A stretch of 64,000 bases of DNA from Corynebacterium fournieri (lineage in GTDB: Bacteria > Actinomycetota > Actinomycetes > Mycobacteriales > Mycobacteriaceae): positions 248,001-312,000 of the forward strand of contig NZ_CP047210.1 of the NCBI RefSeq assembly GCF_030408775.1. Direction: 5' to 3'. Shown piece by piece: positions 27,607 to 33,523 of this stretch. Under the pieces are notes generated by a model. The model worked only from the letters and a program-made list of their open reading frames with translations, was not told the origin of the DNA and made no database searches. The translations under genes and the position numbers were made by a program. The first letter of the stretch is position 1; the number at the start of each line of letters is the position of its first letter.

Positions 27607-28368
27607 TCAGCCCCGGCCCAGCTCGTGGCTGAGCGCTTCGAGTTCGCCGCCGCCGGCCATCTGGTGGGTCAGCTCTTCGAGCGTCACGTCCGCGCGGGGT
27701 GCGTCGAGCTCCTGGCGGCCCAGCTTCAAGATGGTGAAGTGGTCGCCGACGAGGTAGGCGTGGTGGGGGTTGTGGGTGACAAGCACGACGGCGATGCCGC
27801 GGTCGCGGGCGGCGGCGACCATGCGCAGGACCATGCCGGATTGTTTGACGCCGAGGGCGGCGGTGGGCTCGTCGAGGATGAGCATCCGGGCGCCGAAGTA
27901 GACGGCGCGGGCGATGGCGACGACTTGGCGCTGGCCGCCGGAGAGGTTGCCGGCTTCGACGTCGACGTCGGGGATGTCAATGCCCATCTCCAGCAGTTGC
28001 TCGGAGCAGATCCGCTTCATCTCGGCTTGGCGCAGGACGCCGAGCGGGCCGGTGAGTTCTTGGCCGAGGAAGAAGTTGCGCCAGACGCTGAGCTCGTCCA
28101 CGATCGCGAGCGTTTGGTGCACGGTGGCGATGCCGGCGTCGATGGCGTCGCGGGGGGAGGTGAGGGTGGAGGCGGAGCCGTCGATAAGCATGGTGCCCGA
28201 GGTGGGTTGATGCAGGCCCGACAGGATTTTGATCAGGGTGGATTTGCCGGCGCCATTGTCGCCGAGCACGCAGGTGACTTCGCCTTCGCGCACGGCGAGG
28301 TTGACGCCGCGCAGCGCCTCGAAGCTGCCGTAGGACTTGGTGATGTTTTCCAGTTCGATGACAGCCAC
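27607..28368 (-). CDS. sugar ABC transporter ATP-binding protein
   Basis: 253 residues, a single ABC domain: Walker A GDNGAGKST, signature LSGGQRQ, Walker B LILDEPTAAL, H-loop LVTHN. One domain instead of the double domain of RbsA points to the FrcA-type sugar importers. The GTG start at 28368 directly follows the permease stop. Third gene of a binding protein-permease-ATPase operon. Confidence 0.93.
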   Translation of the reverse strand: MAVIELENITKSYGSFEALRGVNLAVREGEVTCVLGDNGAGKSTLIKILSGLHQPTSGTMLIDGSASTLTSPRDAIDAGIATVHQTLAIVDELSVWRNFFLGQELTGPLGVLRQAEMKRICSEQLLEMGIDIPDVDVEAGNLSGGQRQVVAIARAVYFGARMLILDEPTAALGVKQSGMVLRMVAAARDRGIAVVLVTHNPHHAYLVGDHFTILKLGRQELDAPRADVTLEELTHQMAGGGELEALSHELGRG

Positions 28369-29385
28369 TTAGCGCCCCTTGGTGTATTTAGCGAAGGAGG
28401 TGTTGGCGAGCACCGCCACCAGCAGTGTCGCGCCGAGGAAGAACTTGAACCAGTCCGGGTTCCAGCCGGCGTAGACGATGCCCTGGTTGGTCATGCCGAA
28501 GATCAGCGCGCCGATGGCGGTGCCGACGGCGGTGCCGCGCCCGCCCGTCATGGCGCAGCCGCCGATGACCGCGGCGATGATGTAGAGAAATTCGTTGCCC
28601 ACGCCCTGGCCGGCCTGGATGGAGTCGAAGGCGAACAGGGTGTGCATGCCGACGAACCACGCGGCGAAGCCGATGCCCATGAACAGCAGAATCTTCACGC
28701 GGCGCACCGGCACGCCGACGGCGCGGGCGGCGTCGGCGTTGCCGCCGACCGCGGTGATCCAGCCGCCGAGCTTGGTGCGGAACAGCACGAACGATGCCAC
28801 GGCGACGAAGAAGATCCACCACAGGACGGTCACCGAGATGCGCACGTTGCCGATGTGGAACTCGCCGGCGAACACGGCGTGGGCGGACGGGAAGCCCTCC
28901 ATGTCCGCGATGGTGGGGGTGGCCACCTGGCCGGTGACCAGCTTCGTCACCGCCAGGTTCAAGCCTTGGAGCATGAGGAAGGCCGCCAGGGTGATCAGGA
29001 AGGAATCGATGCCGGTGCGCGTGACCAAAAAGCCGTTGAGCGCGCCGATGGCCAGCGAGATCCCCAGCGCGAGGAACGCGCCCACCCACGAGTTCAGGTG
29101 CAGGTTGTAGTTCAGCATCGTCGCGGCCAGCGCGGCGGTGGTCACGGCGACACCGGAGGAGAGGTCGAACTCCCCGCCGATCATGAGCATGCCCACCGCA
29201 AGCGCCACGATGCCCAGGGTGGAGCTGGCGTACAGCGTGGTGGCCAGCGCCTCAAAGGAGCGAAACGCCGGCGCCACGGAGAGGAAGAAGACAAAGATAG
29301 CGATGAAGCCGAGGAGGCTGGCAAACTCCGGGCGGCGGATCAGGCGCGCGAACCCGGTGCGGGTTTTCAGGCGGTCGTCCCTCAT
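28369..29385 (-). CDS. sugar ABC transporter permease (RbsC-like)
   Basis: 338 residues from the ATG at 29385, whose ATGA overlaps the stop of the binding-protein gene; the frame stays open upstream but only as an antisense shadow. About ten helices of the BPD_transp_2 family, with motifs such as IGGEFDLSSG, TRTGIDSFLITLA and AVIGGCAMTGGRGT characteristic of ribose/fructose/xylose permeases. Confidence 0.93.
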   Translation of the reverse strand: MRDDRLKTRTGFARLIRRPEFASLLGFIAIFVFFLSVAPAFRSFEALATTLYASSTLGIVALAVGMLMIGGEFDLSSGVAVTTAALAATMLNYNLHLNSWVGAFLALGISLAIGALNGFLVTRTGIDSFLITLAAFLMLQGLNLAVTKLVTGQVATPTIADMEGFPSAHAVFAGEFHIGNVRISVTVLWWIFFVAVASFVLFRTKLGGWITAVGGNADAARAVGVPVRRVKILLFMGIGFAAWFVGMHTLFAFDSIQAGQGVGNEFLYIIAAVIGGCAMTGGRGTAVGTAIGALIFGMTNQGIVYAGWNPDWFKFFLGATLLVAVLANTSFAKYTKGR

Positions 29386-30380
29386 CGCATGCCCGCCTTC
29401 GCGGCCTCTTCGACCTTGTCCACGTTGCTTGCGTCCACGAAGCTCGGGCCCGTGTAGACGGGGCGCCCGCCGCCGAGGGTGCCGCCGTTGCGTTTTGCAA
29501 TCCACAGCGAGTCCACCGCCAGGTAGCCCTGCAGGTACGGCTGCTGGTCCACGGCCCACGCCACGCGCCCGTCCGCGATGGCGCCAACGAGCTCCGCGTT
29601 GGTGTCGAAGGTGGACACCTGTGCCTTCGCGCCGGACTGGTTCACGGATTCCACGGCGCGCATCGCCACCGGCGCCTGCAGCGCAAACACGGTGTCGAAG
29701 GAGCGGTCCTGGGAAAGCTTCGAGGTGATGGTGGACTGCACGGCGGTGAGGTCCTGGCCGTTGACGTACAGCAGCTCCACCGCGTTTGAGTCGCCGCCGA
29801 GGCCGTCGCGCACACCGGCGCAGCGCGCCTCCTGCGAGGAGTTGCCCTGCTCGTGGATCACGCACAGCACCTTCTTCTTGCCTTCCTCCTTGAGGCGCTC
29901 GCCGGCGGCGCGGCCGGCCACGGTCTCGTCCTGGCCGAAGAAGCCGGTCAACCCGTAGTCCTGGTACGCGGTCATGCCGGCGTTCAGGCCGACCACGGGG
30001 ATGCCGTGGTCCACGGCGTCGCGCGCCGCTGGGCCGATCGCCTCCGCATTCGGCATGGTCACGGCGATGCCGTCCACGCCCGCGTCCACCGCGGAGCGCA
30101 CGAGGTTCGCCTGGTTGGGCGCCTGCGGGTCGGATGAGTAGCGCAGCTCGATGTTGTCCTTCTTCGCGGCGTCCTCGGCGCCCTTGCGCACGAGGTCCCA
30201 GTAGGTGTCGCCGGGCGCGCCGTGGGTGACCATCGCCACCACGTACCGCGGGGTGTCCACGCCGCCCGCCGTGCCGCCGCCGTCTTCGTTGCGGGGGGCT
30301 CCGCCTGTCGACGAGCATCCGCCCAACACCGCTGCCACCGTCAGTAGCGCGGCTGCCACAGTTTTCCGTGCCTTCCTCAT
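29382..30380 (-). CDS. sugar ABC transporter substrate-binding lipoprotein
   Basis: 332 residues from the ATG at 30380. A lipoprotein signal peptide MRKARKTVAAALLTVAAV ends in the lipobox LGGC. The mature part is a type I periplasmic-binding fold (Peripla_BP_4): VAMVTHGAPGDTYWDLVRKG, SAVDAGVDGIAVTMPNAEA and GIPVVGLNAG. The substrate is probably a pentose, hexose or inositol-like compound; the sequence does not decide. First gene of the importer operon; no regulator is adjacent. Confidence 0.92.
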   Translation of the reverse strand: MRKARKTVAAALLTVAAVLGGCSSTGGAPRNEDGGGTAGGVDTPRYVVAMVTHGAPGDTYWDLVRKGAEDAAKKDNIELRYSSDPQAPNQANLVRSAVDAGVDGIAVTMPNAEAIGPAARDAVDHGIPVVGLNAGMTAYQDYGLTGFFGQDETVAGRAAGERLKEEGKKKVLCVIHEQGNSSQEARCAGVRDGLGGDSNAVELLYVNGQDLTAVQSTITSKLSQDRSFDTVFALQAPVAMRAVESVNQSGAKAQVSTFDTNAELVGAIADGRVAWAVDQQPYLQGYLAVDSLWIAKRNGGTLGGGRPVYTGPSFVDASNVDKVEEAAKAGMR

Positions 30381-30451
30381 TGCCAAAGTGTGAACCACTG
30401 CACTCGGGTGCGTCAAGCGGACTAGACGTATTGACCGGAGACGTCAATTAA

Positions 30452-30481
30452 TTGGCTGAGATCCGCCACGCTGGGTAAACT
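30452..30481 (+). promoter_or_regulatory. putative promoter of the leader peptide-ABC-F-MFS operon
   Basis: TTGGCT (30452-30457), 18-nt spacer, TAAACT (30476-30481). An AT-rich block CAATTAA lies directly upstream of the -35, where WhiB7 sites are found in actinobacterial antibiotic-response promoters. The leader ATG is 7 nt after the -10, so the leader peptide would be translated from a leaderless mRNA. Confidence 0.5.
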
Positions 30482-30488
30482 CTGCCTC

Positions 30489-30533
30489 ATGTACTCAGGC
30501 ATCGCTTCCATGAAGCTGCGTTCCGCCCGCTGA
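30489..30533 (+). CDS. leader peptide MYSGIASMKLRSAR, macrolide-arrest type
   Basis: 14 codons then TGA. The core ASMKLR has the basic-x-basic pattern (K-L-R) of the MRLR class of macrolide-dependent arrest peptides, exemplified by the leaders of ermD and mef(A), in which erythromycin-bound ribosomes stall. It starts at the predicted transcription start and precedes alternative hairpins and the ABC-F gene. Expected role: drug-bound ribosomes stall here and reshape the downstream RNA to turn on the operon. The peptide is read directly; its function is inferred from resemblance. Confidence 0.6.
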   Translation: MYSGIASMKLRSAR

Positions 30534-30608
30534 CGGCGGCGGGACCCCTTCTGATCTCTCGTCTGCCGTCCTGGCCATCTGCCGGGCGGTCATTTAGTGC
30601 TGCCCGGC
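30523..30608 (+). promoter_or_regulatory. putative attenuator: competing hairpins before the ABC-F gene
   Basis: Hairpin 1 covers the end of the leader: CCGCC (30523-30527) with GGCGG (30535-30539), or CCCGC with GCGGG (30539-30543). Hairpin 2 is GCCGGGC (30581-30587) with GCCCGGC (30602-30608). The segment around 30567-30590 can alternatively fold on itself (CCGTCCTGGC with GCCGGGCGG). There is no T-run, so control may be at the ribosome-binding site or through Rho. Folding not computed. Confidence 0.45.
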
Positions 30609-30632
30609 TCCATGACGAGCTGAAAGTACGAA

Positions 30633-32285
30633 ATGCCAATCACACCAACCTTGCGGTCATGTGTGTGGAACGGAACGCCCCGCGGGCCAGTCGCACACAT
30701 CCGTGCCGAATCAATCCACATCACCTTGGGAGACAGGCACCTCCTGAACGGGCTGGATGTCACCGTCTCCGCCGGCTCACGCCTGGCGATCGTCGGCGAC
30801 AACGGCCGTGGTAAGACCACCTTGCTCCATATCTTGGCGGGGCTCCTGACCCCTGACTCGGGAGTAGTGACCCAGATGGGTTCCCTCGTCCTGGTCAAGC
30901 AGGACATGCCCACCGAAGGCAACCGCACCGTCGGCGATCTCATCGCCGAAGCGACAGCTCCCTCCAGGGCTGCACTTGAGGCACTCGACGTGGCGAGCGC
31001 AGCACTCGCCGCAGGAAACGACGCGGCCGATGCCTATTCCGCAGCGCTCGAGACCGCCACGCTATTGGATGCCTGGGATGCAGAAAGGCGCGTGGACATC
31101 GCACTTGCAGGCCTTGACGCTTGCAGCGACCGCGCTCGCATACTGTCGACCTTGTCGGTCGGGCAACGGTACCGGGTCCGGCTTGCCGTCGCACTTGGAT
31201 CGACCCCTGACCTGCTCCTGCTGGACGAGCCCACGAACCACCTCGACGCTGCAGGACTGTCCTTCCTAACCGAACGACTGCGTGATCACCCCGGTGGCCT
31301 GGCTCTGGTCAGTCACGACCGCGCTCTGCTGCGTGATGTGGCGACTACCTTCCTGGATCTCGACCCGACCCGAGATGGCGTGCCGCGAACCTACTCGGGC
31401 GGCTACCAAGGCTGGATTGAAGGCCGCCGACGAGAACGCCTCGTGTGGGAACAGGACCACGCCGCCCAGGTCGCCCGGCACAATGAACTGACACGCGCTG
31501 CAGCCGAGGCACGCTCCCGCCTGTCTCAGGGGGGATGGAGACCTGACAAGGGCACAGGCAAGCACCAACGCGCCACACGCGCTGCTGGAGTGGTCCAAGC
31601 CTTCAACCGACGTATAGAAGACCTGAAACGTCATGAGATCGACGTGCCGGCACCGCCACTGCGTCTAGCGTGGCCCGCCTCGACAACTCGTGCCGGGCAG
31701 AGCATCATGAACGCCACCGAAGTTACTGTGAAGGACCGGTTGGACACTCCGGTGTCGGTTGACGTGAACGGCGGTGACCGGTTGGTGGTCACCGGACCAA
31801 ACGGCGCGGGAAAGTCCACCTTGTTGGCAGTTCTTGCACAGCGTCTGGCCCCCACCACGGGACATGTGCGAGTGAACCCGAGAGCACGCATCACTCTGCT
31901 GTCTCAAGAGGTCTCCGACTGGGATCACTCCAGCCCCGCACACGAGGTCTACGAGGCGTACCTAACAAAGCTGGGCCGCCGATCTCAGGCGCCTACTCTC
32001 GGCTCGCTCGGGCTGCTCGAGGCCTCTGCAACCAACACGCCCGTGGGGCGCCTGTCGCAAGGACAGCAACGCCGACTCCACCTGGCCATGTGTCTGGCAC
32101 AGGACCCAGACCTGCTGCTCCTGGACGAACCCACCAATCATCTGTCATCGAACCTCGTCGACGACATCACCACCGAGCTCCAACAGGCCTCCTGCGCGGT
32201 GATCGTCGCCACCCATGACCGGCAGATGCTCCACGACTTTTCCGACTGGCCCCACCTGAACCTTGACTTGAAGGACATGCCATGA
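30633..32285 (+). CDS. ABC-F family ATPase, probable ribosome-protection protein
   Basis: 550 residues with two ABC domains and no transmembrane helices, the ABC-F hallmark. Domain 1: Walker [10 protein letters not shown] (55-63), signature LSVGQRYR, Walker [13 protein letters not shown]. Domain 2: [30 protein letters not shown] charged interdomain linker (about 260-330) includes [14 protein letters not shown]. Antibiotic-resistance ABC-Fs (MsrD, VmlR, LmrC types) enter the ribosome to displace macrolides, lincosamides or related drugs. The pairing with an MFS exporter and a +x+ leader peptide supports that role. The ATG at 30633 lacks a strong RBS; a GTG at 30663 is an alternative. Stop overlaps the MFS ATG. 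Confidence 0.9.
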
Positions 32286-33523
32286 ACCCGCTTCACCCCT
32301 TGACCATCCCCACGTACCGCCAGTTGTTCGCAGCGATGGTGCTGACCATCTTCGCCCAGGGCGCCTGGGCCCTCTACCTGACCATGCAGACCCTCGACCT
32401 GGGCGCCACGCCAGCCACCTTGTCGGGTGTCGTGGCCTGGAGCGGCATCGGCCTGCTTGCGGGATCCCTCCCAGCTGGCGTAATTGCCGACCGGATCCCC
32501 AACAAATCCGTCATCGTGGGTGTGCTCGCCCTGAATCTCGCCATCGCGACCGCGATGTCCACAGCAGCAATCCTCGACTTTGTCACCTTCTGGATGCTCG
32601 CGGTCTCCGCGTTCATCAGTGGCGCTTCAACCGCCTTCTTCTTCCCCGCCTACACGGCACTGGTGCCAGTCCTGGTGGATAGCGACGACCTCATGGCCGT
32701 CAACGGCCTCGAAGGCGCCACCCGTCCCTTGGTCGGGCAGGCACTTGCGCCCGCTGTCGTCGGAGCGCTCATCGGCGCAAGCATGCCCGCCGCTGGCGGG
32801 TACCTCATCGCAGCAGCAATCGGACTTGGCCTGCTCGCGGCCCTGCGGCTTCCCACCCCCACCCGCGCCGAAACGGAGGCCAATGCCGACGCTGCGGCAG
32901 ACTCACCGATCACCGATCTGCTCGATGGCTTCCGCTACGTTTCCCGCACACGCTGGGTTCGCTCCAGTGTCCTGTTCGCGGCCGTCATGGGACTGGTCGT
33001 GACCGGACCACTCGAAGTCCTCCTACCCGCTCTTATGCGCTCCTCGCATGACAATGGACCTGCCCTCTACGGGGCCGTCCTGGCTGCCCTCGGCGCGGGC
33101 GGGTTGGTGGGCTCCCTGCTGGCGGGGTCGTGGCGCACACCGGAACGCTTCCTGCCCGCAATGGTCGGCGTCTGGGCGCTCGGATGTCTGCCCTTGTCCA
33201 TCCCGGCGCTCACCAGCAATCCGTGGGCCATCGGTGCAGGACTCGCGTTCTACGGGGCGCTGATCGGGATCGGGATGGTCATCTGGGGAACAGTGCTTCA
33301 AGAGCACGTCCCCTTGGAGATGCTCGGCAGGGTCGCCAGCCTCGACTTCTTCATTTCCATCGCCTTCATGCCTCTGTCCATCGCCCTCACCGGACTCTTC
33401 AGCCGCTTCATCGACTCCAGAACTCTGTTCATCACCGCCGGCCTGGTGCCACTGGCCACGGCAGCACTGCTCCTAGCCCTGGGTCAACTCAAGATGCCAC
33501 AGAAGACGCTGGCCGAGGCATGA
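32282..33523 (+). CDS. MFS transporter, Mef-like drug exporter
   Basis: 413 residues, twelve hydrophobic segments, ATGA overlap with the ABC-F gene. The loop 2-3 region [17 protein letters not shown] matches the MFS signature, and the overall layout fits the MFS_3 group that includes macrolide exporters Mef(A)/Mef(E). The pair recalls the mef-mel (msrD) operon of streptococci, here with the order reversed. Predicted to export the same drug from which the ABC-F protects the ribosome; substrate not proven. Confidence 0.85.

Follow-up and report, generated by a model that had tools for sequence, protein, structure and literature searches.

Introduction

Erythromycin arrest motifs take the forms +X(+), XP(X), +X(W) and XP(W) (PMC6238534), and leaders with an ASM[KR]LR or SMRLR core precede the macrolide-resistance genes mef(A)/mef(E) (MTASMRLR), msr(C) (MTASMKLRFELLNNN) and erm(D)/erm(K) (MTHSMRLR-type). 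For the leader of erm(X) translational attenuation has been suggested (PMC3350403), and the same paper cites Rosato 2001 for inducible resistance in C. jeikeium. In C. glutamicum about 33% of mRNAs are leaderless, and the promoter hexamer TAnnnT is placed at a distance of 3-11 nt from the start site (PMC3890552).

A core of this kind is also found in a 14-codon frame within the stretch of Corynebacterium fournieri DNA that is analyzed here (GCF_030408775.1, NZ_CP047210.1, positions 248,001-312,000, forward strand, 64,000 nt, referred to as the window in what follows), where a first-pass annotation had proposed a drug-sensing leader peptide. That reading of function is probably right, judging from the comparisons described below, and the element to which the leader belongs is most likely a macrolide-sensing attenuator that is distributed more widely than Corynebacterium and is kin to the erm(X) leader. 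The assignment draws on the conservation of the element, a -10 box at 7 nt, the arrest triplet, the mef/msr core, the Erm, Mph and Mef-like contexts of similar leaders and the layout shared with erm(X).

Materials and Methods

ABC-F loci were collected with the ABC-F protein as query, blind to the leader. The genus search covered 151 genomes, 74 with an ABC-F match, from which the 30 best places were taken as loci, and the class search covered 394 genomes, 25 with a match (the genome of the window included), giving 24 new loci and a set of 54 in all. L001 is the window's own copy of the locus. Leader start codons were called from the frame ending at the hairpin stop, and in all 24 loci that carry the RNA element this frame has a single start with TANNNT 5-9 nt before it. 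A covariance model, R1, was built from 25 rows including one erm(X) row (L189), and its E-values are rough; its training rows include L001, L005, L007 and L163-L166, the element in L162 is that of another such row (L092), and L002-L004 and L006 closely duplicate rows used in training. R1 matches on the other strand or off the leader (lowest E 0.014) were discarded. Folding was carried out for 12 loci, comparing the pairing with and without the leader masked. Further literature drawn on comprises PMC10201436, PMC11264731, PMC12421871 and PMC8546547.

Results and Discussion

Leader, Promoter and Operon in the Window

The leader peptide gene (30489..30533, + strand) opens with ATG at 30489 and encodes MYSGIASMKLRSAR in 14 codons followed by TGA (30531-30533). 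The box TAAACT at 30476..30481 lies 7 nt before this ATG, a geometry that predicts transcription to start at the A of the ATG itself (30489), and inspection by eye gives TTGGCT (30452..30457) as a possible, weak -35 hexamer with an 18-nt spacer, all on the + strand. An AT-rich tract is seen 5' of the possible -35. A strict sigma-70 scan of 29900-31200 returned no promoter, missing that of the leader, and no T-tailed terminator. Downstream, open reading frames and an NCBIfam scan identify an ABC-F ribosomal-protection-like ATPase of 550 aa (30633..32285, +) and an MFS transporter of 413 aa (32282..33523, +) that overlap by 4 nt, so that the arrangement described in the first-pass annotation, a short frame 7 nt 3' of a -10 sequence and ahead of an ABC-F/MFS operon, is present in the sequence. 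On the - strand, the region 27607-30416 diverges from the leader promoter and resembles, by eye, an ABC transporter operon of the sugar type, with genes for a substrate-binding protein, a permease and an ATPase.

The best NCBIfam model for the ABC-F protein is NF000355 ribo_prot_ABC_F and the second is the TlrC/CarA/OleB/SrmB model, both scoring below their cut-offs; from this we infer that the protein may confer macrolide resistance. For the MFS protein the best model is Tet(V), also below cut-off, with the Mef models far weaker. A plasmid search with the entire ABC-F/MFS operon as query gave no match.

The frame is more than a chance occurrence: GIASMRLR scores 34 at its best match near the L001 ABC-F start, and none of 100 Markov-shuffled copies exceeds 18.

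Conservation before ABC-F Genes

The same leader-plus-RNA element was found in 24 of the 54 blind-fetched loci, bearing out the expectation that the leader should be conserved 5' of ABC-F genes in other actinobacteria. On the leader strand R1 matches 23 of them at E<=0.055 (L001-L018 and L162-L166), the remaining one, L167, being recognized only at E=0.57; for L008-L018, which are independent of the training, all 11 match at E<=0.055. In L001-L007, whose ABC-F genes are nearly identical (L001-L003) or 93-72% identical (L004-L007), the leader is positioned at -144 relative to the ABC-F start, and that of the 72%-identical relative reads MFIGVGSLKLRSAR. In L015, with an ABC-F protein that is 54% identical, the leader is MYKGTNSGIASMRLRTRR, at -232. 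By peptide similarity, GIASMRLR matches beat all 100 shuffles in 10 of the 54 loci (L001-L007, L015, L162 and L166), those of L164 and L163 are reached by 1 and 2 shuffles, respectively, and the remaining 42 are unremarkable.

A basic-x-basic macrolide-arrest core had been proposed for the leader and is borne out, at the level of sequence, by the predicted arrest triplet K-L-R at codons 9-11 (+ strand), which places an Arg/Lys-x-Arg/Lys signature (K9-L10-R11) in a short upstream frame before a macrolide-resistance-like gene; the surrounding ASMKLR occurs unchanged as the core of msr(C)L (MTASMKLR...) and differs by one residue from mef(A)L (MTASMRLR) in the published leaders (PMC4335068 Table 3; PMC10314930). 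All 24 element-bearing leaders contain [KR]x[KRW], in 23 of them at residues -6 to -4, that is, ending three codons before the stop, the exception being L018 with the triplet one codon before the stop. When the count is restricted to distinct leaders the figure is 16 of 17, and at nine control offsets it is 0 for eight and 4/17 for the other, at -4. In the diverged leaders the position of the triplet is constant and its residues differ (KLR, RPW, RIW, KLW).

Promoter Geometry and Predicted Leaderless Initiation

TANNNT is located exactly 7 nt 5' of the leader start in all 24 element-bearing loci, as expected of a leaderless mRNA and as had been anticipated for the window copy, with -10 letters that vary from locus to locus (taaact, tagtgt, tatcct, taccgt, tagggt, tacagt and others). 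A count over the 740 ATG/GTG triplets that lie 5' of the 54 ABC-F genes gives TANNNT at 7 nt in 38 cases, at 6 nt in 14 and at each of the other spacings from 3 to 12 nt in 1-3. Because the -10 box is 7 nt from the start codon, the transcript is predicted to begin at the leader ATG, with leaderless initiation. In a set of 40 hand-picked leaders, TANNNT was seen by eye 6-7 nt 5' of the start codon in 37; in L092 and L162, which are copies of one element, it precedes the first of two ATGs. A Shine-Dalgarno-like start takes the place of this geometry in two Brevibacillus leaders and in L154.

Occurrence in Other Genera and with Other Resistance Genes

The exact pattern GIASM[KR]LR occurs in 108 stretches of the genome contigs, of which 24 are short leader frames that precede ABC-F (17), Erm (2), Mph (2) and Mef-like MFS (1) genes or are cut by the end of the locus (2); the other 84, which show no sign of a resistance-gene leader, are probably mostly chance. 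Behind the GIASMRLR leaders, the two Erm proteins score above the general Erm cut-off and the two Mph and one Mef-like proteins below their family cut-offs. Hosts of the ABC-F cases include Janibacter, Austwickia, Frankia, Nocardioides, Rothia, Dactylosporangium and Micrococcus, as well as Brevibacterium, Kribbia and Microbacterium, so that the leader, which had been called corynebacterial, is indeed found in Corynebacterium but also in many genera besides. In Brevibacillus (L056, L123) a nine-residue peptide, MGIASMRLR, with a Shine-Dalgarno-like start lies ahead of a macrolide 2'-phosphotransferase-like gene, and R1 does not match these mph loci.

Searched across 100 of the 108 pattern loci (L054-L153), R1 gives 20 matches at E<=0.016, many of them to training rows; L061 is matched over its first third only, where the locus is cut. 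At E<=0.001 R1 recognizes 17 of 394 class genomes and 72 of 242 genus genomes. The 29 further genus loci found in this manner lie before ABC-F (11) or Erm(X)-like (18) genes, and of the 22 whose leaders were read, 21 have both TANNNT at 7 or 6 nt and a [KR]x[KRW] triplet, L239 (RPL) lacking the latter. The L239 leader, MLISGSVFMRPLTSR, is an erm(X) leader variant without a +x(+) triplet, and its methylase is 96% identical to Erm(X). Among 11 weak class hits (L202-L212), a scan of five downstream proteins identified Erm in L203, L204 and L210 and MFS in L202 and L207. The leader of L207 is uncertain, and the hits in L206, L209 and L212 appear to be chance matches. More distantly related elements (L202, L203, L205, L208, L210 and L211) have long alanine- or cysteine-rich leaders, or leaders ending in RIRRS, RMRRF or RPRRA, and in the three for which a downstream gene was scanned it is an Lmr(A)-like MFS gene (L202) or Erm (L203, L210).

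A BLAST search of plasmids with the region returned a Micrococcus luteus plasmid with ABC-F and MFS genes, erm(X) of Trueperella pyogenes pAP2, and two Prescottella equi plasmids on which erm(46) is preceded by an ABC-F gene whose leader is MYASTGFMKPWSLR (TANNNT at 8 nt).

A Second Kind of Leaderless-Looking Leader

Thirty of the ABC-F loci are without the R1 element, and in 28 of these (L019-L028, L030, L168-L179 and L181-L185) a scan restricted to start codons 6-7 nt after TANNNT revealed one other leaderless-looking leader. It reads MHLYFL in 13 loci and is a variant such as MQYLYFL, MHLPLYL or MHYYFL in 15. No such leader was found in L029, and the sole fit in L180 is the start of the ABC-F gene itself. 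Taken together, 52 of the 54 ABC-F loci fit one of the two leader kinds. The leaderless MHLYFL pattern was found in 3 of 394 class genomes, each time just 5' of an ABC-F gene that had already been found, and the reversed MHLYFL control is absent among the matches listed. MHLYFL was not found in the open-access literature searched.

The RNA Element and Its Pairing

Between leader and gene about one hundred bases align in blocks that are common to these genera, for erm and ABC-F genes alike. The element matched by R1 in the window (30519..30634, + strand, 104.9 bits) matches nothing in Rfam 15, which gave no family in the window at gathering score and none up to E=10 at 30400-30720. It contains six arms, all on the + strand and successively complementary (1:2, 2:3, 3:4, 4:5, 5:6). 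Arm 1, UUCCGCCCGC (30521..30530), consists of the last leader bases, is read from the sequence and could pair with arm 2. The next four are as follows: arm 2, GACGGCGGCGGGA (30532..30544), could pair with arm 1 or arm 3; arm 3, GCCGUCCUGGC (30565..30575), with arm 2 or arm 4; arm 4, GCCGGGCGGU (30581..30590), with arm 3 or arm 5; and arm 5, GCCCGGCUC (30602..30610), with arm 4 or with a putative arm 6. The latter, proposed from the sequence at 30617..30626, combines GAGCU with the weak Shine-Dalgarno-like GAAAG of the ABC-F gene.

In the 25 rows, 2:3 plus 4:5 are paired in 96.6% of cells and 3:4 in 94.0%, and partners slid by 1-3 columns pair in 28-54%. Covariation support for the arm pairings is weak. 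In 3:4, two pairs are changed on both sides, a count reached by 42 of 500 shuffles, and the covariation score is reached by 15 of 500; the compensatory changes are found in two Nocardioides rows, where C-G becomes U-A, and in erm(X), where G-C becomes A-U. One pair of 2:3 is changed on both sides and none of 4:5, where 5 of 7 pairs are invariant, and the covariation score of 2:3 plus 4:5 is reached by 353 of 500 shuffles. RNAalifold picks 2:3 plus 4:5, and its covariation term is -0.01.

The window RNA folded alone has a z-score of -1.78 and presents no clear switch. Masking the leader forms 2:3 in 11 of the 12 loci (not L163); 4:5, which a switch scheme predicts to rise, rose in 3 and fell in 9 (0.92 to 0.00 in the window). 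Without masking, 3:4 is below 0.4 in 11 of 12 loci and 4:5 is favored (>=0.85) in 9 of 12. The ribosome-binding site became less paired upon masking in 10 of 12 loci yet was still more than half paired in 11, and in the window its pairing rose from 0.54 to 0.59. In unmasked erm(X) 3:4 and 5:6 fold, with arms 1 and 2 taken up by pairing to earlier bases of the leader. The folding energies, as modeled, thus largely disagree with a six-arm switch, which is proposed on the basis of complementarity across relatives and not of energies, so that the evidence for the sensor is much stronger than that for the output step.

Proposed Mechanism and Alternatives

We consider it likely, from the sequence comparisons, that the leader is a macrolide sensor and that a stalled ribosome changes the RNA fold so as to turn on the ABC-F and MFS genes. 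Transcription would start at the A of the leader ATG, and ribosomes would consequently bind directly at the 5' end, with no Shine-Dalgarno site involved. A ribosome with a macrolide in its exit tunnel would stall at K-L-R, a +x(+) triplet, holding L10 in the P site and R11 in the A site if the published motif applies. Because this triplet ends three codons before the stop, a stalled ribosome with the usual footprint would have its leading edge at about the stop codon, covering arm 1 and leaving arm 2 free for arm 3. Without drug, 1:2, 3:4 and 5:6 would pair, hiding the ABC-F ribosome-binding site, and with a stalled ribosome 2:3 and 4:5 would pair, freeing it; the change in fold would then switch on both genes, at the level of translation or of transcription.

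The choice between these two levels is where the strongest competing scheme enters, in which the sensor is the same and the stable 4:5 hairpin ends transcription unless a stalled ribosome refolds the RNA. It is a tentative and less likely alternative: the ABC-F attenuators that have been studied are often transcriptional (msrD, vmlR and the actinobacterial lmrC), 4:5 is the most conserved pairing, and, as noted above, folding favors it in nine loci when the leader is unmasked and reduces it in nine upon masking. However, no U run follows the 4:5 hairpin, and a scan limited to U-tailed intrinsic terminators found none. In the window, bases next to the ribosome-binding site are complementary to arm 5 (GGCUC:GAGCU), and in erm(X) GCUCCUU faces AAGGAGC, both as in translational attenuators. 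It is unlikely that the leader senses another ribosome drug (a lincosamide, streptogramin, ketolide or pleuromutilin) more than macrolides, even though lmrC and the Streptomyces ARE5 genes answer to lincosamides, streptogramin A and pleuromutilins and the specificity of the window ABC-F protein is predicted from sequence. The triplet is a published erythromycin motif (PMC6238534), GIASMRLR leaders precede Mph, Mef-like and Erm genes, the TlrC/CarA/OleB/SrmB model is second best for the ABC-F protein, and the ARE5 leaders (MLV, MVGDDDISG) are dissimilar.

The end of the leader lies in arm 1 and its codons may be held by RNA pairing, from which one could argue that only promoter and RNA structure are conserved in the stretch, with a frame that is translated and amino acids that are irrelevant. 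We regard this as extremely improbable, since diverged leaders keep [KR]x[KRW] at one position with different residues and since GIASMRLR recurs before mph in Brevibacillus, with a Shine-Dalgarno-like start and no R1 match. WhiB7-like factors control resistance genes in actinobacteria, and the AT-rich tract before the possible -35 would suit induction by a factor of that kind with the leader incidental; this is very unlikely, because the four WhiB-family proteins of the genome have, by eye, no obvious WhiB7-type tail and because the fixed leader geometry would be left unexplained.

If a macrolide-sensing attenuator is indeed what the element represents, a single antibiotic-sensing RNA switch with exchangeable leader peptides would serve ABC-F, Erm and efflux genes across many actinobacterial genera, and it would do so on a leaderless mRNA, making the role of bare-5'-end initiation in drug sensing testable. 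It would also provide a sequence rule for inducible resistance genes, namely a -10 box, 7 nt, a start codon and an arrest triplet three codons before the stop.

Comparison with Known Systems

The first-pass annotation had called the leader possibly undescribed. This holds for its use before ABC-F genes and for the leaderless design, neither of which was found in the open-access literature searched, where GIASMRLR and IASMRLR are likewise absent and ASMRLR occurs only in mef/msrD work; older work on erm(X) or Streptomyces erm genes may hold more. The kind of element is known, however, since the erm(X) leader (MLISGTAFLRLRTNR; ...RSNR in Trueperella pyogenes pAP2) has the same layout, starting 7 nt after a -10 box (TATAAT) and carrying RLR three codons before the stop. 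In the annotated erm(X) leader of pAP2, MLISGTAFLRLRSNR, TATAAT lies 7 nt before the ATG and window-type RNA blocks continue up to the gene. The window thus has the leader and the downstream RNA blocks of an erm(X)-type attenuator, and R1 finds both kinds in Corynebacterium, although it was trained with one erm(X) row. Unlike the window element, that of erm(X) controls a 23S rRNA methylase, has AU-richer arms 1-3 and places a strong Shine-Dalgarno site in arm 6. On pRErm46, erm(46) has its own leader, VGNTNIAVTEFRRF (L188:5780-6100), 6 nt after TAGGGT, which has no triplet at -6 to -4 and a similar arm arrangement in different letters; its IAVTE core resembles the IAVVE leader of erm(A).

Like the window, mef/msr(D) is an operon of MFS and ABC-F genes, but mef(E)L differs from the window leader in having a Shine-Dalgarno site and a start 34 bases into the mRNA, and in that its RLR ends at the stop and is followed by a Rho-independent terminator. 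The Streptomyces genes lmrC and ARE5 (are5sc, tiaA) are actinobacterial ABC-F genes under a drug-sensing upstream frame, as proposed here, whereas their upstream frames have other sequences and answer to other drugs (LSAP); lmrC has a mapped premature terminator and the frames of are5sc and tiaA lie within 5' UTRs of 194-232 nt, both unlike the window.

MsrDL (MYLIFM) resembles the second leader kind of the relatives, MHLYFL, and not the window leader. It stalls at its own stop codon; L3 and I4 are critical residues, and F5 clashes with release factors (PMC10314930). We somewhat favor the view that drug-sensing upstream frames of this actinobacterial ABC-F group are leaderless as a rule, the ribosome on the bare 5' end being the sensor, and that they come in two kinds, a +x(+) or +x(W) peptide on a switch shared with erm and an MsrDL-like hexapeptide, mirroring the two leaders of streptococcal mefA-msrD.
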